Origin: an uncultured Planctomycetaceae bacterium
GTDB taxonomy: Bacteria; Planctomycetota; Planctomycetia; Planctomycetales; Planctomycetaceae
Assembly: GCA_937916515.1 (NCBI GenBank)
Contig: CALFSX010000151.1
Location: 1 to 64,000 of the forward strand
DNA length: 64,000 nucleotides
Direction: 5' to 3'
Part shown: piece after piece, positions 3,510-64,000 of the stretch
Numbering within the stretch: the stretch's first letter is position 1
Layout of the letters: the number at the start of each line of letters is the position of its first letter
Translations under genes and position numbers: made by a program
The notes under the pieces: generated by a model
Database searches by the model: none
Seen by the model: only the letters and a program-made list of their open reading frames with translations
Told to the model about the DNA's origin: nothing

Positions 3510-4313
3510 CTACGGCAACTGGTCGAACGTACAGAACGGCAAGTTCAGTTCCTGAGCTTTGCTGAATACTCGCGTAAGTGCTTCCGGAGTTACAAAGTGG
3601 CCTCCAGCGGGTTTCGTGTCGCAAATCCGATGTGCGTACAACACGATGATTTCGTTCCTTTTTGCCGCTCGAGTTAAAGCTGCGTCGATTTGTTCATAGG
3701 TTCGATCCGCTCGTGTGGGCGCATAGTCGATGCCCTTAGCGTACAGGCAGCCGTGTTGACTGATGCTGTTGGCCGCAACAAAAAACGCGTCGACATCACA
3801 GACGCGTTCTCCATCCGCAACATTTTTTCCGGTGCGAAGATGTCGGAAGACCTTTAGCAGTGTTTCATCTGTGACAGCATCGTTGCGGCTCATGGGATAC
3901 GCGAATGATGTGGGCATTGCGTCCGCAGCTTCGAATTCTTTCAGCTGAGGTTGAATTTCGTGGCGAAGAAATTCTTCCGGCGATTTTTCCTGGCAGTACT
4001 CGACCGCTTTCAGATGATGCACGCTGTGCGAACCGATCGCGTGACCATGGTCTTTTAGCTTGCGAATTGCTTCAACAGCGGGACCATCAATCTTCCCACT
4101 GATAAAGAACGTCGCTTTAACGCCGAACTCGTCAAACAGCGGAATCGCTTTCACCCAGTCGTCGAAATTCCGATCGTCGAATGTCAGTACGATTCCGCCA
4201 CGATTTGGCGCGATCGCCGGTGGAACTTCATCAGCACGCGCGTCGGTGATTGCAACCACGTTCACCAACACCGTAACCGCGACAAGAAACATGCTCCGTC
4301 GTCTCATGCCCAT
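3510..4313 (-). CDS. Secreted polysaccharide deacetylase (NodB fold)
   Basis: Carbohydrate esterase 4-type enzyme predicted to remove N- or O-acetyl groups from a polysaccharide outside the cytoplasm. The product has 267 residues: a basic N-terminus and hydrophobic core (about 8-23), a likely signal peptide ending before ADEVPP, then the catalytic start IVLTFDD with Asp46-Asp47, and the metal-binding H96-S-V-H-H100 in GHAIGSHSVHH. FAYPMSRND and the late IIVLYAHRI correspond to later NodB motifs. Its start overlaps the end of the RraA-like gene by about 10 bp, so translational coupling is likely. The sugar substrate is unknown. Confidence 0.88.
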   Translation of the reverse strand: MGMRRRSMFLVAVTVLVNVVAITDARADEVPPAIAPNRGGIVLTFDDRNFDDWVKAIPLFDEFGVKATFFISGKIDGPAVEAIRKLKDHGHAIGSHSVHHLKAVEYCQEKSPEEFLRHEIQPQLKEFEAADAMPTSFAYPMSRNDAVTDETLLKVFRHLRTGKNVADGERVCDVDAFFVAANSISQHGCLYAKGIDYAPTRADRTYEQIDAALTRAAKRNEIIVLYAHRICDTKPAGGHFVTPEALTRVFSKAQELNLPFCTFDQLP

Positions 4314-5071
4314 TCACCCGACTTGCCGGAAAACTTCTCTTTGGCCAGTCGCCCGAATTCAGAACACGCCTGGTCGATCTCATTCAGCAGCTGTTCCGTC
4401 GACTTACCGGCAGCGTTTCGAGCGGCCGGAATCATTGTCTGGCATTCGAAGGAATCCATGCTGCGAGCCGCCTGCAAAAGATGACGCGTGTCCTGCTGTG
4501 GCACGGCAAGGAACCCATGCTTGTCCGCGTGAATCAGTGTTCCCGGTGCGATGCGTGTGCCAAAGACTTCCACTTCGCAGCCCCAGCGAACCGGCGTGCT
4601 GTACGCATGACCGACGCTTAACCGCCGAGCCAACGCTTTGAAACCCGCGTTGGTCATTTCATCGACGTCGCGAATGGAGCCATCCACTATCGCGCCGACG
4701 CAACCGAGAGCTCGATGAATGTTGCTGTTCACTTCCCCCCAGAATGCACCGAAGGTCGCTGGCTTGTCCAGATCCTGCACCACGACAATCTTGGGTCCCG
4801 GCACCGAGGCAACATAGCGGCGATATTCGCTCCACGCGCCCGCGTTTACTGTTTTGTGAACGGCATTGCCCGGTTCAATCACGACCGTGACCGCGTAGCC
4901 GACCATCGGTCCCATCTGAGGCATAAAGTCATGAGTTTCCTCAAGGTTGAAACAGTCTCGCCCGGCATCGCGCGACGTGATCTGTTCCCAACCGTTGTAA
5001 ATGGTAGGTGTGTTCCAGCGTTTCAGTTCCAGAAGATCCGCGTGGCTTAGTTGCGGTACGTTGTCGTTCAT
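4304..5071 (-). CDS. RraA-like family protein (HMG/CHA aldolase-like fold)
   Basis: A 255-residue member of the RraA/demethylmenaquinone methyltransferase-like family. The central block CVGAIVDGSIRDVDEM contains the family DGxxRD signature, preceded by GEVNSNIHRALG, the usual substrate loop. Relatives include 4-hydroxy-4-methyl-2-oxoglutarate aldolases, oxaloacetate decarboxylases and the RNase E regulator RraA. Since the neighbours are carbohydrate enzymes, an aldolase or decarboxylase role is more likely than RNase regulation. It is the first gene of the minus-strand unit ending with the sulfatase, and its stop overlaps the next start. No signal peptide is present, so it is cytoplasmic. Confidence 0.82.
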   Translation of the reverse strand: MNDNVPQLSHADLLELKRWNTPTIYNGWEQITSRDAGRDCFNLEETHDFMPQMGPMVGYAVTVVIEPGNAVHKTVNAGAWSEYRRYVASVPGPKIVVVQDLDKPATFGAFWGEVNSNIHRALGCVGAIVDGSIRDVDEMTNAGFKALARRLSVGHAYSTPVRWGCEVEVFGTRIAPGTLIHADKHGFLAVPQQDTRHLLQAARSMDSFECQTMIPAARNAAGKSTEQLLNEIDQACSEFGRLAKEKFSGKSGEWA

Positions 5072-57430: not shown

Positions 57431-58192
57431 TTAGTTGCCGTCGTTGATGTACGAACCGTCTCGCAATGCGAAGCCGCCAGTGGGGATTTTGTCAATCATT
57501 TCCGGAAGCAACGAGGTGCGAGCATTCAGGCCTGCAGAATAAGGGGTTTCAATGTGCAGATCCGAACTTTGATGAAAGATGCCCGGCAGAAAGCGTCCGG
57601 CTTCGTGAGCAAGATAGCAGCCATATTGGTTGGGGGCTGAGTCAATTCGCTCAATGCGCCCCAACATTACAGGTGCGGAATATTCTGACATAGAAATGCA
57701 AATGCCGAATTCCTGCCCCAGCTTCAAGTTTGCGGCGCACGAAATTTTGATGCCACTCAAAGCGTAATTCAGAATTCTCATTCGCTGGCGAGTTGCGAAT
57801 TCAGAACTTTGCAGCCACGCCGACCAGTTGCATGGATACCGAAGATTGTCGCGGAGCTCCCACCAGGACTTCGACAGCATACTTTCGGGGATCGGTGAAT
57901 TCAGGTACACGCCCAGTTCCCAGCCGGAATTCGACGGTCGGCACCAATGCACGACTCCTCGGTTCGGAACAGTTCCGGATACGAAATCCAGGTACATAAT
58001 CAGGGCGATCGGTGTACCGAACTTCAGAGGCCGATCCGTGTTCAAACGGACGTCGCCGCGAGAGATCTCGGAGATGTTCAGAGGCAACGGCACGCCAGAT
58101 TCCAGGCACCCGCACATCTGGATGCCTCCAGTACGCGGAATGTCCCCTAGGGGAATAGAGGATTGACTTTTCCTGTAAGTCACAAGAAGCAC
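57431..58192 (-). CDS. Tandem PilZ-like protein (possible c-di-GMP effector)
   Basis: A 253-residue soluble protein read from a GTG at 58192; Met26 is an alternative start. Two PilZ-like barrels are suggested. The first (about 28-115) has PLNISEISRGDVRLNTD and then GVVHWCRPSNSGWELGVYLN, the typical W..G.elGV strand pair. The second (about 115-215) has LRYPCNWSAW and MRILNYALSGIKISC, followed by GRIERIDSAPNQYGCYLAHE. The binding motifs RxxxR and D/NxSxxG are degenerate, so c-di-GMP binding is uncertain. It stands alone, with a 670-bp gap upstream. Confidence 0.65.
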   Translation of the reverse strand: MLLVTYRKSQSSIPLGDIPRTGGIQMCGCLESGVPLPLNISEISRGDVRLNTDRPLKFGTPIALIMYLDFVSGTVPNRGVVHWCRPSNSGWELGVYLNSPIPESMLSKSWWELRDNLRYPCNWSAWLQSSEFATRQRMRILNYALSGIKISCAANLKLGQEFGICISMSEYSAPVMLGRIERIDSAPNQYGCYLAHEAGRFLPGIFHQSSDLHIETPYSAGLNARTSLLPEMIDKIPTGGFALRDGSYINDGN

Positions 58193-58861: not shown

Positions 58862-61800
58862 ATGATGCTGATTTCTTCGTGGCTTAAGTCGTTCCAAAAA
58901 AATCTTCAGACACGTCCCCGCCGCATCGTTCGGCGATCATCCAGCCAGGCGTCGCGCCAGGCTGAACATCTGGAAACTCGCTCCCTGCTGACCGCTCCAA
59001 CCCTTGTTGGTGTCCGTCCCAACATCGGTGACTTTCTGGATCCTGGCGAAGTTCGCGACGTCGCTCCCAAAGAGCTGACTCTGCAATTTAACCCCGGTCA
59101 GATAATCGATGCCAGCAACAATCGCTTGTTCAGTAACTCGCCGATTATCGTCGAACGATCTGGAAACGACGGCACGTTCGGCGACGGCAACGAAGTTCCG
59201 GTAACGCTCGGCTTCGTCGGAATTGGCGACACAGTTGAAGAGGTGGTTCTTCGTTTCGCAGAAAATCTGCCGGACGATACCTATCGAATCACAATCCGTG
59301 GCACTGGCGGGAATCCGCTTCAAAACACTGCCGGCGAAGCCTACGCCGACGGAGCTGACGGTACGTTCACCTTCGGCCTGAACCTGGGTGCTCAGGTGCG
59401 AGCCGTTGTTCCACAACCCATTGTTCGTGGTCCAGGCGGGGCTCTTACGCAGAATCGCCGACAGATTGTTGTTTATTTCAACAACGACCGGCTGAACGTA
59501 GCGTCCGCGCAGACTGCTGCGTTTTATCAGTTGATTTACACAAACGACACCGTCGAAAACACGGACGATGCGGGCAGCTTCTATCTTCCGACTAACGTCA
59601 GTTACGACCCGGTCGCGAATACCTCAACGCTGACATACGCGCAGGATCTCGAAGTTCTCAATCCAGGCGGAGCGGGCACGTTTCGTTTGCGGATTGGGTC
59701 GAACGAGTCGATCCCACTTCCACCGACAAGTCAGACCTTTGTTGAAACCTTCGTCAGTGACTTTGGCACTGCGGGAAGCGCGACTCTGACACTTGAGCCG
59801 ATCGTGACTATTGACGGCAACCCGATCGACGTCAACTTTTCGACGGCGGCACTTGGAGCTGGCGGCGTACCGTCAGTCAGTGTCGCCGGACGACAGATCG
59901 ACATCGTCCTGAACACCGATGGTGGAACGACCGCTGGTCAGCTGCTTTGGGCCATCAATCTGCATCCTGAAGCCAGTGACCTGGTCCGCGCCACGATTGC
60001 TGGCGACCTTGTGACGAATTTTGCGGCGACGGCAACTGCTTCGTCGTTTTCTTTCATGGATCCGGGTTCTTCGTTTGATAACAACACCGATCTGGGAGTG
60101 CTGACATCTCAAAGTCAGGTTTTGACCGGGCAAATCCGTTCTGTCGACTATCCGTTTGACTTTCCGGGCAACACCGATGAGATAGGTCACCGTGATATCG
60201 ACGTCTCAGAAGAGTCTCACATTGAGGTTGCACCAGATTCGAATCCGCAGATTTCAACGCTGTTCTACAACTTTCAAAGAAACTACGGCTTTTCTCCTCA
60301 GGGAGCACAGCTTTCGAACCTGATTACAGAAAACCAAAAGCAGCGTGCTCGGGAAGTGTTTGAACTGTACAGCCACTATCTGGGCGTTCAGTTCGTGGAA
60401 ACTGATAACCTTGGTTTCACGATCGTGACAGGCGACCTTCGCGCGATCGACCCGAACATCCTGACAGGTGCCGGCGGTGTGACGGCACAGTCAAGCCGAG
60501 CCTTAAACCTGGCGATTATGGATAACGCCGAAGGCGCGGCATGGGACGACAGTCGTGGCGGTTCGTGGTTTAGTTCAGCGTTTCACGAAATTGGCCACCT
60601 TCTGGGATTGGGGCATGCCTACGATTTGCCGGACCTAACAGTTTCCGGCGCGTTTGAAGGACCTGTCGTTGAGACGACAACCGCTGAGCCGGACTTCCCC
60701 GGTGATGCTGATATTGTTCACGGTCAACTGCTTTACCGACCTGAAAATCGTGACATCGACCTGTATCGATTCGAAGTTGCCGCAACCGGTTTGTTCAGTG
60801 CTGAGACTGTTGCTGAGCGACTTGCGGATGCCAGTCTCCTGGATACAACCATGCGGTTGTTCCGAGAAAAGTTGGATGGCACTCGTGAGCTGGTTTCTCA
60901 GAATGACGATTACTTCAGCGAAGATTCGTTGATTTCTTTGACTCTGACTCCAGGCGTTTACTTCCTGGGAGTCAGTGCCAGCGGTAACGACGCATACAAT
61001 CCGGAGATTGCGGACTCTGGAATGAACGGCACGACTCAGGGTGAGTACCGTCTGCAGATCAGCTTCCGCCCAGACGCAAGCTCGACAATTCTGGATGCGA
61101 CCGGTGTGCCGCTTGACGGTGACCTTGACGGTCTGGCGGGTGGCGAATTCAATTTTTGGTTCCGCGCTGCGACTCCAGCGAACACTCATTATGTAGACCG
61201 CATCGCGCCAAACGGGGGGACAGGTACACTGGCTTCTCCGTTTAATGAGATCGATCTGGCTTTGGCTGCCGCTTCGCCCGGCGACATTGTACGTATCGTT
61301 GGTAACGCTGGTGCTGACGGCGACGCTTCCGAACTGGCAGACAACGTTGCCTATCAAATCGGGTTGGATGATTCCGGCAATGCTTTGCGAGACGGCGGGT
61401 CGTTTGAGATTCCTCAGGACGTGGTCGTAATGATCGACGGGGGAGCTTTACTGAAGTTTCAGGACACCTTTATCGTCGCCGGCAGCACGTCGTCAACCGT
61501 TGACCGAAGCGGTGCGAGCGTGCAGCTGCTTGGGACTCCGGAGAACGATGTTGTACTGACTTCGTGGCGTGACGAGACGGTTGGTCAGGATACGACTCCA
61601 ACGCCAACGAGCCCCAATCAGGGTAACTGGGGCGGTGTTGTATTTCGTCGCGACGTGGACAACGACGAAAATCGTCTGAACTACGAACGTCTCGGAATCT
61701 TCATGGACTATATTGCCTTCGCCAATATCAGTTACGGCGGTGGCAAACTGCAAATCGATTCCGTTGAGCAGGTCATCAATCCCGTGACTCTGTTTGAGTC

Positions 61801-64000
61801 GCGACCTGGAATCTACAACAACTTTATTACCTTGAGCGAAGACTCAGCGATTTCTGCGGATCCTGACAGCTTTGAGGAAACGACATTCGTAACTCCGTTC
61901 TACCAAAACGTAGCGTTTACTCCTGACTACAGCCGCATCGGGCCCGACATTTATGGCAACACGCTGATCGATAACTCGACAAACGGTTTGTTCGTTCGCA
62001 TTCAAACTGCACCTGGCAATCCTACAAGCAAATTGACGGTTACTGGTCGTTTCGACGACAAAGACATCGTTCACGTGATTGCGGAAAACCTTGAAATTCA
62101 GGGGACTCCCGGCGGTCCGTTTCTTGAATTGGCCGCTCCTCCAGTTGTGTTGGTCACACTTAACGCCAGCGCAGGTGGTACGCTTGGCAATGGTGATTAC
62201 AATTATCGAGTTGTGTTTGTCGATTCGTCCGGAAACACAAGCCCACCGTCGGAAGTGACAAGAAGTGTCACATTGGCTGGAGCCAATGGCAGCGTGACTC
62301 TTGGGAATTTGCCACCTGCATCTGCTCCTTATAACGGACGTTTGTTGTACCGATCTCAGGATACAGGCACTGGTCCTTACGAGTTGGTTGCGATCCTGAA
62401 CGCATCGTCAACATCATACTTCGATGACGGTACGACTTTGACCGGCATTCTGGACGAAACACTGGTCGGGCGTAATCGTGCTCGTCTTGATGCAAGTCTT
62501 GTTATTGACCCCAATGTGATCGTAAAGCTTGAATCTGCTCGCATTGAAGTGGGTCTTGGCGCGCAGATTATTGCCGAAGGTAGCGCAGGGCAGGAAATCG
62601 TATTTACGTCGCGTCTTGACGACAGGTTCGGGGCTGGCGGCACGTTCGACACAAACAACGATGACAAGGTCAATAACGAAGCCGTTCCTGGTGCGGGCAA
62701 TTGGGGTGGTTTCTATCTGTCGCCTGTAGCAGCAGCCAGCTTCGACAATGTTCTTATCACATTCGGCGGTGGGATTATCCCAACGAACGGTGACTTTGCA
62801 GCGTTCAACGTGATCGAAGCTCATCAGGCTGATCTGCGTGTCACCAACAGCGTACTGGAAGAAAATGCGGATGGCACCGGAGGCTCAGCGCCAGCCGAGC
62901 GATTCGGTCGTTCGGCCAATGCAGCGGCCACGATTTTTGCCCGAGGAACTCAACCGATTCTGATTGGGAACACGGTACGTAACAACGCTGGACCGTTCGT
63001 TTCTATTAACGTAAATGCACTGAACTCGACATATGTTGCCGATACTGGGCGGTCACGTGGAGGGGCTGATCTGTTCGGTGGTTACGAAGATAACCAGGGG
63101 CCATTGATCGATGGGAATCTGTTGGGTGGAAACGGCATTAACGGGATGGTTGTCCGTGGCGAAGTCCTAACGACTCAAAGCGTCTGGGACGACACCGACA
63201 TTGTTCACGTGTTGTTTGACGAAGTGATTGACCCGAACTTCCACACCTACGGCGGCATTCGCCTGAACAGTGATTCTGACGCAAGTCTTGTCGTGAAACT
63301 ACAAGGCGATGACGCGGGCTTTACTGCTGGAGGCAAGCCTCTGGATATCGACGATCGAATCGGCGGAACATTGCAGGTTGTTGGGCAACCTTTTTTCCCG
63401 GTGATTCTGACATCATTCAGCGACGACACCGTGGGTGCAGGTTTTGACCTTGCTGGACTTCCATTGACCGACACAAACGGTGATGGAGCAAGTACTGGGG
63501 TTGTCGGCGACTGGCGAAGCCTTGAAATCACTCAGTACGCAAACGATCGCAACGTTGGAGTCTACAACGAAAACGAAGTTACAGCGGCAATCGGCGCTGG
63601 TACAAACTCGACCGCGCGTGACGCTGAGTTCATTGGTGACCTTGGCAAGTATAATCTGCGAACCACCAATCCCGATGGTACTCACACGATCCAGAACACT
63701 GCGGATAACAACCTGCGTCTGGGATTCGAAATCAATGGATCCATCAACAGCCCTGGCGACGTCGACGTATACAGCTTCACCGGAGTCGCCGGTTCGGAAG
63801 TCTGGATCGACATTGATCGCTCGACGATGTCGTTGGACACCGTCGTTGAACTGATCACATCGTCGGGAACAATTCTGGCACTGTCGGACAACTCTTACGC
63901 AGAATCGCAGGGACAGTATCCTGTCTTCGCACGAACCGCCAGCAGCATCAGAGCAAACAGTCTTAACAAGTCACAGTACATCAGCGACGACTTATACGGC
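58862..64000 (+). CDS. Giant secreted metzincin-type metalloprotease/adhesin, partial at window end
   Basis: Open frame of 1713 codons from ATG 58862 (or 58865) to the last base, continuing outside. The N-terminus is basic and carries the planctomycetal export motif LETRSLL (37-43). An Ig-like region follows to about 290. The zinc site AFHEIGHLLGLGHAYD (HEIGHLLGLGH, 575-585) fits HExxHxxGxxH of metzincins. A PPC-like domain follows at about 610-734 and another at about 1620-1680. Between them a beta-rich module with TS..DD..G.G and G.W repeats three times, near residues 895, 1245 and 1515. Likely a surface or secreted protein that digests or binds extracellular polymer or protein. aggac upstream is a plausible ribosome-binding site. 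The C-terminal anchor lies beyond the window. Confidence 0.88.
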   Translation, partial: MMLISSWLKSFQKNLQTRPRRIVRRSSSQASRQAEHLETRSLLTAPTLVGVRPNIGDFLDPGEVRDVAPKELTLQFNPGQIIDASNNRLFSNSPIIVERSGNDGTFGDGNEVPVTLGFVGIGDTVEEVVLRFAENLPDDTYRITIRGTGGNPLQNTAGEAYADGADGTFTFGLNLGAQVRAVVPQPIVRGPGGALTQNRRQIVVYFNNDRLNVASAQTAAFYQLIYTNDTVENTDDAGSFYLPTNVSYDPVANTSTLTYAQDLEVLNPGGAGTFRLRIGSNESIPLPPTSQTFVETFVSDFGTAGSATLTLEPIVTIDGNPIDVNFSTAALGAGGVPSVSVAGRQIDIVLNTDGGTTAGQLLWAINLHPEASDLVRATIAGDLVTNFAATATASSFSFMDPGSSFDNNTDLGVLTSQSQVLTGQIRSVDYPFDFPGNTDEIGHRDIDVSEESHIEVAPDSNPQISTLFYNFQRNYGFSPQGAQLSNLITENQKQRAREVFELYSHYLGVQFVETDNLGFTIVTGDLRAIDPNILTGAGGVTAQSSRALNLAIMDNAEGAAWDDSRGGSWFSSAFHEIGHLLGLGHAYDLPDLTVSGAFEGPVVETTTAEPDFPGDADIVHGQLLYRPENRDIDLYRFEVAATGLFSAETVAERLADASLLDTTMRLFREKLDGTRELVSQNDDYFSEDSLISLTLTPGVYFLGVSASGNDAYNPEIADSGMNGTTQGEYRLQISFRPDASSTILDATGVPLDGDLDGLAGGEFNFWFRAATPANTHYVDRIAPNGGTGTLASPFNEIDLALAAASPGDIVRIVGNAGADGDASELADNVAYQIGLDDSGNALRDGGSFEIPQDVVVMIDGGALLKFQDTFIVAGSTSSTVDRSGASVQLLGTPENDVVLTSWRDETVGQDTTPTPTSPNQGNWGGVVFRRDVDNDENRLNYERLGIFMDYIAFANISYGGGKLQIDSVEQVINPVTLFESRPGIYNNFITLSEDSAISADPDSFEETTFVTPFYQNVAFTPDYSRIGPDIYGNTLIDNSTNGLFVRIQTAPGNPTSKLTVTGRFDDKDIVHVIAENLEIQGTPGGPFLELAAPPVVLVTLNASAGGTLGNGDYNYRVVFVDSSGNTSPPSEVTRSVTLAGANGSVTLGNLPPASAPYNGRLLYRSQDTGTGPYELVAILNASSTSYFDDGTTLTGILDETLVGRNRARLDASLVIDPNVIVKLESARIEVGLGAQIIAEGSAGQEIVFTSRLDDRFGAGGTFDTNNDDKVNNEAVPGAGNWGGFYLSPVAAASFDNVLITFGGGIIPTNGDFAAFNVIEAHQADLRVTNSVLEENADGTGGSAPAERFGRSANAAATIFARGTQPILIGNTVRNNAGPFVSINVNALNSTYVADTGRSRGGADLFGGYEDNQGPLIDGNLLGGNGINGMVVRGEVLTTQSVWDDTDIVHVLFDEVIDPNFHTYGGIRLNSDSDASLVVKLQGDDAGFTAGGKPLDIDDRIGGTLQVVGQPFFPVILTSFSDDTVGAGFDLAGLPLTDTNGDGASTGVVGDWRSLEITQYANDRNVGVYNENEVTAAIGAGTNSTARDAEFIGDLGKYNLRTTNPDGTHTIQNTADNNLRLGFEINGSINSPGDVDVYSFTGVAGSEVWIDIDRSTMSLDTVVELITSSGTILALSDNSYAESQGQYPVFARTASSIRANSLNKSQYISDDLYG

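Follow-up and report, generated by a model that had tools for sequence, protein, structure and literature searches.

The window, which is the whole 64,000-nucleotide stretch analysed here, contains a long open reading frame on the + strand that begins at 58862 and stays open through the window end at 64000. The full frame covers positions 58862-74989 of the contig and encodes 5,375 amino acids with zero internal stops. The first-pass annotation had described a frame of at least 1713 codons; the open frame was real, but the actual length is 5,375 residues and not approximately 1,713. The true start is probably the second Met, at 58865, because the N terminus of same-genus homologues reads MLIS[ST]WL. 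The features of this gene in the window are as follows.

58862-64000, + strand: in-window part of the open reading frame (1,713 codons of 5,375; start probably at 58865)
58970-58990, + strand: LETRSLL, a motif of the LExRxLL type, residues 37-43 (same site in homologues)
60164-60193, + strand: PGxxDEPGHR-type motif, residues 435-444, just upstream of the catalytic fold (family conservation)
60212-60748, + strand: matrixin (MMP-like) catalytic-domain fold, residues 451-629 (Pfam, profile, AlphaFold2, Foldseek and VIA)
60485-60487, + strand: Ala542, edge-strand position (62 of the 64 zinc-intact homologues have Gly)
60584-60616, + strand: HEIGHLLGLGH zinc-binding site, residues 575-585 (sequence)
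60644-60646, + strand: Met-turn position, Ser595, codon TCC (ATG, Met, in the closest relatives)
60749-61075, + strand: first PPC-like beta domain, residues ~630-738 (model strands; PPC matches of the paralogue and homologues)
61154-63631, + strand: predicted right-handed parallel beta-helix, residues 765-1590 (AlphaFold2 pLDDT 86.4, pTM 0.81)
61559-61645, + strand: TSWRDETVG ... GNWGGVVF, copy 1 of the repeated element, residues 900-928 (no variation of W and GG among 50 homologues)
62156-62428, + strand: Ig/fn3-like domain within the beta-helix, residues ~1099-1189 (strand pattern, profile, Foldseek)
62606-62719, + strand: TSRLDDRFGAGG ... GNWGGFYL, copy 2, residues 1249-1286 (sequence, family conservation)
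63410-63529, + strand: TSFSDDTVGAG ... GDWRSLEI, copy 3, residues 1517-1556 (sequence, family conservation)
63758-63913, + strand: second PPC domain, residues 1633-1684 (Pfam PF04151, E 5.5e-6, above the cut-off)

The domain order is a matrixin fold, a PPC domain, a long parallel beta-helix, further PPC-like, GEVED and Ig/fn3-type domains, and a tail consisting of a hydrophobic part plus RRRR. Past the window, a weak PPC-like stretch lies at residues 2740-2825 and a GEVED domain at ~4206-4360, together with a series of Ig/fn3-like repeats; matches to tandem-95 and PKD-like domains in the profile search were both sub-threshold. A second homologous copy in the same genome, on contig C123, is truncated by the contig end and open for 2,062 codons. 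LETRSLL, HEIGHLLGLGH, the two PPC regions and the three TS..DD..G.W motifs were all found at the residues given by the first-pass annotation, and the domain order backs the surface-type repeat architecture that it had described. Its observation is confirmed, and its interpretation is partly supported.

The position of the LExRxLL-type motif, which had been recognized as typical of planctomycetal giant proteins, is kept in relatives, where the equivalents of LETRSLL are LESRHLL, LEPKALL, LEVRSLL, LEKRELL and LESRQLL. The motif is located near residue 40 and is followed by the putative mature chain, as expected of an export signal of the LExRxLL (LEPR-XLL) class. A search of NCBIfam at E 0.1 reported no model for LETRSLL and nothing useful across the N-terminal part. 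At the other end, the protein terminates in FGWLAGLAMLPPALRRRRKSED. The C-terminal tail GWLAGLAMLPPALRRRRKSED, at positions 74924-74986 of contig C151 (925-987 of L007) and past the window, is preceded by NWDxAIWAEES. Five same-genus giants have the pattern GW.A..A.L.P...RR in common, and the tails of homologues from other genera and families are acidic and lack it. The hydrophobic part of the tail is only ~12 residues long, too short for a confident membrane-anchor call. A genome-wide C-terminal sorting signal found no support; a profile of the tail matched no other protein of its own genome and found this gene alone. We also observed a VFAG motif ([DV]..VFAG) that recurs near the C termini of giant homologues from other families (L127, L128 and L129), and this is possibly another lineage-specific C-terminal signal.

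HEIGHLLGLGH matches the zinc-binding pattern HExxHxxGxxH of the metzincins, to which the first-pass annotation had assigned the protein. Both sequence and predicted fold place the domain in the matrixin type. The Pfam Peptidase_M10 model matched residues 486-588 just under the cut-off when the long query was used (E 1e-4, 22.6 bits), and above it when the domain was scored alone (E 7e-6, 26.4 bits against a cut-off of 24). The best solved relative was macrophage metalloelastase MMP-12 (E 6e-4 with the single sequence and 4e-5 with the family profile). An AlphaFold2 model of the protease domain, built on 80 sequences, had a mean pLDDT of 85.9. Foldseek matched this model to the MMP catalytic domain 1ros_A with E 1e-6 and a probability of 1.00. 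VIA aligned model residues 27-204 with stromelysin-1 (1sln; Z 14.7, rmsd 2.8, 154 residues), and the model with karilysin 8b2q at Z 13.8. The conserved segment DIVHGQ.LYRP is the counterpart of the helix after the MMP Met-turn, and this helix is predicted here, with the PPC domain directly after it; the model thus contains what is predicted to be a matrixin fold including its C-terminal helix. The first-pass annotation had named Pfam searches and structure prediction as checks. The former gave Peptidase_M10, above the cut-off for the domain alone, and PPC (PF04151), and the latter gave a complete matrixin catalytic-domain fold at residues 451-629. The PGxxDEPGHR motif that precedes this fold is probably structural, because members without zinc ligands also keep it. 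It is not clearly a zymogen switch (Cys or Asp in a propeptide), since zinc-less members keep it nearly as well.

Downstream of the protease, Pfam made no call for the first PPC domain (residues 612-738) in the window protein; the corresponding domain of the paralogue matched below the cut-off, and 31 of 80 homologous domains matched. The observed features are more than chance, as residues 765-1590 share best-segment identities of 46-72% with tens of homologues. In the predicted model, this region would form a right-handed beta-solenoid. Its top matches in VIA were overwhelmingly beta-helix proteins (Z 10-12.8), including alginate lyases, tailspikes and pertactin; the scores were 12.8 for AlgG, 12.7 for a pectate lyase and 11.0 for the PfbA adhesin. 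Foldseek alone gave nothing under E 1e-3 for the beta region, and its first six matches align over ~130-170 columns only, apparently in the inserted Ig-like domain. The profile match and the top Foldseek matches of this inserted Ig/fn3-like stretch were phage-structural proteins. The first-pass annotation had described three repeated modules. Three copies are present, but we rejected three independent modules, as the TS..DD..G.W elements recur along one predicted beta-solenoid. When the full protein was compared with itself by BLAST, no internal repeats were listed. The sequence D-D-x-D-I-V-H-V, which shows strong conservation across the family, also occurs twice in the beta-helix, at 62051-62077 (residues 1064-1072) and 63185-63211 (residues 1442-1450).

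We scanned 84,980 species genomes for related proteins with the patterns PG[GAN]xDEPG[HQ]R and [IV][AS][QR]ND.., neither of which touches the zinc site. Since both lie outside this site, the survey was unbiased towards active enzymes. The scan yielded 267 related stretches, and we retained the best 80; the matches listed were from planctomycete genomes, bar one labelled only 'bacterium'. In a second sample of 294 genomes from the phylum, 32 genomes had a match, in several cases to the PPC portion only. The architecture had been called uncommon. It is instead common in Planctomycetota, with at least 267 related stretches and matches in 24 of 58 related genomes, part of which span the PPC portion only.

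The zinc triad (HExxH...H) was intact in 64 of 94 non-redundant planctomycete domains and lost in the other 30, by replacements of many kinds. Fold positions, such as R653, N681, D688 and Y700, are as conserved in the zinc-less group as in the zinc-intact group. Because the matrixin fold persists where the zinc ligands are gone, some family members appear to be pseudopeptidases, and protease activity is very unlikely in the many relatives that have lost these ligands, as judged from their sequences. On a tree constructed without the zinc-site columns, zinc status required at least 14 changes, six of which are forced by well-supported branches, and Met status required 22. Zinc-intact and zinc-lost paralogues occur together in seven genomes. 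A zinc His is also lost in L040 and L049, which belong to the window protein's own clade. In genus g48 of the same family, all nine members checked keep both the zinc site and the Met, and seven of these are single-contig genomes. The zinc-site region of the same-genus G002 domain (L010) is identical to that of a Fuerstiella MAG (L050), and the two open frames are equal in length; the window protein therefore probably comes from the genus Fuerstiella.

Metzincins are named after the Met-turn. Many relatives continue after the zinc site with D-L-P-(x)n-[IV]-M-G, in which the Met lies 8 or 10 residues past the third His, close to the MMP spacing. The window protein has D-L-P-D-L-T-V-S-G at this place, with LTVSG against the LTVMG of close relatives. 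The first-pass annotation had named a Met-turn after the zinc site as support for its assignment. The Met is absent here (Ser595), and the surrounding fold, including the following helix, is predicted. The loop near the turn was modelled at low confidence (pLDDT <50 at residues 599-607; mean of 73 for the block 586-595). A sequencing error is unlikely, since TCC differs from ATG at each of its three positions and the sequence around the codon is intact. Met is present at the turn of L039 and L042, the closest two homologues at 75-78% identity, and the change to Ser is therefore recent and on the branch of the window protein. The second copy in the genome also lacks this Met. The contigs with the close homologues L039, L042 and L115 are titled 'Candidatus Kuenenia stuttgartiensis' MAG and are apparently mislabelled bins. 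The Met has been described as absolutely conserved in metzincins (PMC1266349). In the present family, 39 of the 64 zinc-intact domains and 15 of the 30 zinc-lost ones have it (Fisher p 0.37), and Gln was the commonest substitute (16) among the 25 zinc-intact domains without it. The cultured Blastopirellula marina DSM 3645 has a zinc-intact domain with Gln (L111); L059 is likewise of the Gln type, L041 of the Met type, and L070 is zinc-less. We rejected the loss of Met as a result of zinc loss, because the two showed no association in this test and independent pairs were not significant.

The edge-strand position 542 behaves differently. Gly occupies it in 62 of 64 zinc-intact members versus 10 of 30 zinc-lost members, and this difference suggests that the intact members may still be under catalytic constraint; the association involves few independent events, and a sign test was not significant. 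The window protein has Ala at this position. The aligned residue of MMP-12 is also Ala (GGILAHA), and since MMP-12 is active, Gly542 to Ala is unsupported as an inactivating change.

We consider it reasonably probable that the gene encodes a giant surface adhesin or scaffold with an optional matrixin, which would be active in some members and a pseudopeptidase in others, the present copy being a zinc protease. The protein would be exported and probably placed at the cell surface, where the beta-helix and the Ig/fn3 stalk may bind a surface or polysaccharide in adhesion or scaffolding. The C-terminal tail may hold the giant protein at the envelope, and the matrixin may trim either the giant protein itself or some other protein close by. 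In the family as a whole, catalysis would be an optional trait, with the matrixin fold retained as a structural or binding module in members without zinc ligands.

A competing possibility is that the matrixin of the window protein has already become a pseudopeptidase, with the triad kept for now under relaxed selection and a purely structural or binding role. The replacements of Met by Ser and of Gly542 by Ala both occurred on its own branch, L039 and L042 having Met and Gly; the three-base change at the Met codon is not one sequencing error; and the sister sequences L040 and L049 lack zinc ligands, so that this copy could be heading for inactivation. However, the zinc triad and the catalytic Glu are all intact, MMP-12 shares the Ala, and 25 of the 64 zinc-intact homologues do without the Met. 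Butler et al. (2004, cited in PMC1266349) reportedly found that MMP-2 catalysis does not require the Met-turn Met. We regard inactivation of this copy as somewhat unlikely. Because the four catalytic residues are intact, active MMP-12 has Ala at position 542 and the Met is reportedly dispensable in MMP-2, we favour a still-active or weakly active zinc protease with Ser at the Met-turn, in which zinc is probably still bound.

The division of labour within the chain may also be different. A cut after export might release the matrixin with its PPC domain as a free secreted protease, while the remainder stays on the surface. The position of the PPC ('pre-peptidase C-terminal') domain directly after the catalytic domain is consistent with such a release, but we saw no cleavage site, and zinc-less members, which are incapable of cutting themselves, also conserve the linker and PPC; we consider this unlikely. 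It is quite improbable, in our view, that the protein is mainly a polysaccharide-degrading enzyme of the beta-helix lyase or epimerase type that the matrixin only matures. Alginate and pectate lyases and AlgG are its closest beta-helix folds, and genes for 3-keto-disaccharide hydrolases and a glucuronyl-esterase-like protein lie downstream. However, no CAZyme family matched above the cut-off in Pfam or NCBIfam, the identity to the listed solved lyases is ~8-14%, and no lyase active-site set was identified. Moreover, the fold is common to non-enzymatic adhesins and tailspikes.

The domain resembles the matrixins/MMPs (Pfam PF00413, MEROPS M10; karilysin in bacteria) in its predicted catalytic fold, HExxHxxGxxH, the GG.L.xA edge strand and the post-Met-turn helix. 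However, it lies within a 5,375-residue surface-type chain with no recognised propeptide switch and has Ser for the Met-turn Met, and many members of its family lack zinc ligands. In catalytically dead ADAMs, which are multidomain surface proteins of the adhesion type with active paralogues, the metzincin fold likewise persists without zinc ligands (PMC11266112). In contrast to dead ADAMs, which usually retain the Met-turn, Met loss and zinc loss are unassociated in the planctomycete family, and ADAMs belong to a different metzincin family and a different domain of life. The predicted fold of residues 765-1590 is that of parallel beta-helix surface proteins, such as PfbA and pertactin, and of polysaccharide lyases; here, however, an Ig/fn3-like insert interrupts the helix, and identity is ~8-14%.

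Planctomycetes typically have large surface-type genes, including the giant genes of Rhodopirellula and of the cultured Fuerstiella marisgermanicae NH11. NH11 has 45 genes >5 kb, and adhesion, carbohydrate binding and an outer-membrane location are predicted for its genes >20 kb (PMC5177795); the passages that describe these genes mention neither the matrixin module nor its loss. The same-genus genome G004 (8.9 Mb, single contig) encodes two homologues, whose open frames span 6,394 and 8,396 aa. We found no description of the matrixin module, its repeated loss or natural Met-turn variation in the open-access papers searched. The recurrent change from enzyme to pseudoenzyme and the natural variation at the Met-turn appear to be new, while giant surface genes in planctomycetes were already known.

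The family supplies many natural sequences in which an intact zinc site is combined with a non-Met residue at the Met-turn. Because such sequences exist, and because the zinc site has been lost repeatedly and independently from an otherwise conserved fold, the role of the Met-turn and the conversion of a protease domain into a structural part become testable by evolution instead of mutants. The present results also provide a concrete functional hypothesis for one class of giant genes in planctomycetes, where such genes are mostly unexplained. We tentatively speculate that Planctomycetes have many matrixins that are active without the Met-turn Met (with Gln, Leu, Asn or Ser instead) beside fully zinc-less paralogues in which the retained fold serves as a binding module. 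If true, these giant adhesins would house a bacterial equivalent of the ADAM enzyme/pseudoenzyme system.

Several neighbouring genes were noted. Upstream, at 57431-58192 on the - strand of the window, a PilZ-domain protein with possible c-di-GMP binding is encoded divergently from the giant gene, ~670 bp away. Just downstream on contig C151 (L007, 1497-3677) is a gene for a 726-residue protein with an N-terminal LEELILMSAS motif and a weak match to RTX calcium-binding repeats; it too appears to be an exported protein, with a related motif at the N terminus. Two adjacent 3-keto-disaccharide hydrolase genes and a glucuronyl-esterase-like gene are located farther downstream (L007, 3974-6019 and 8619-9929).
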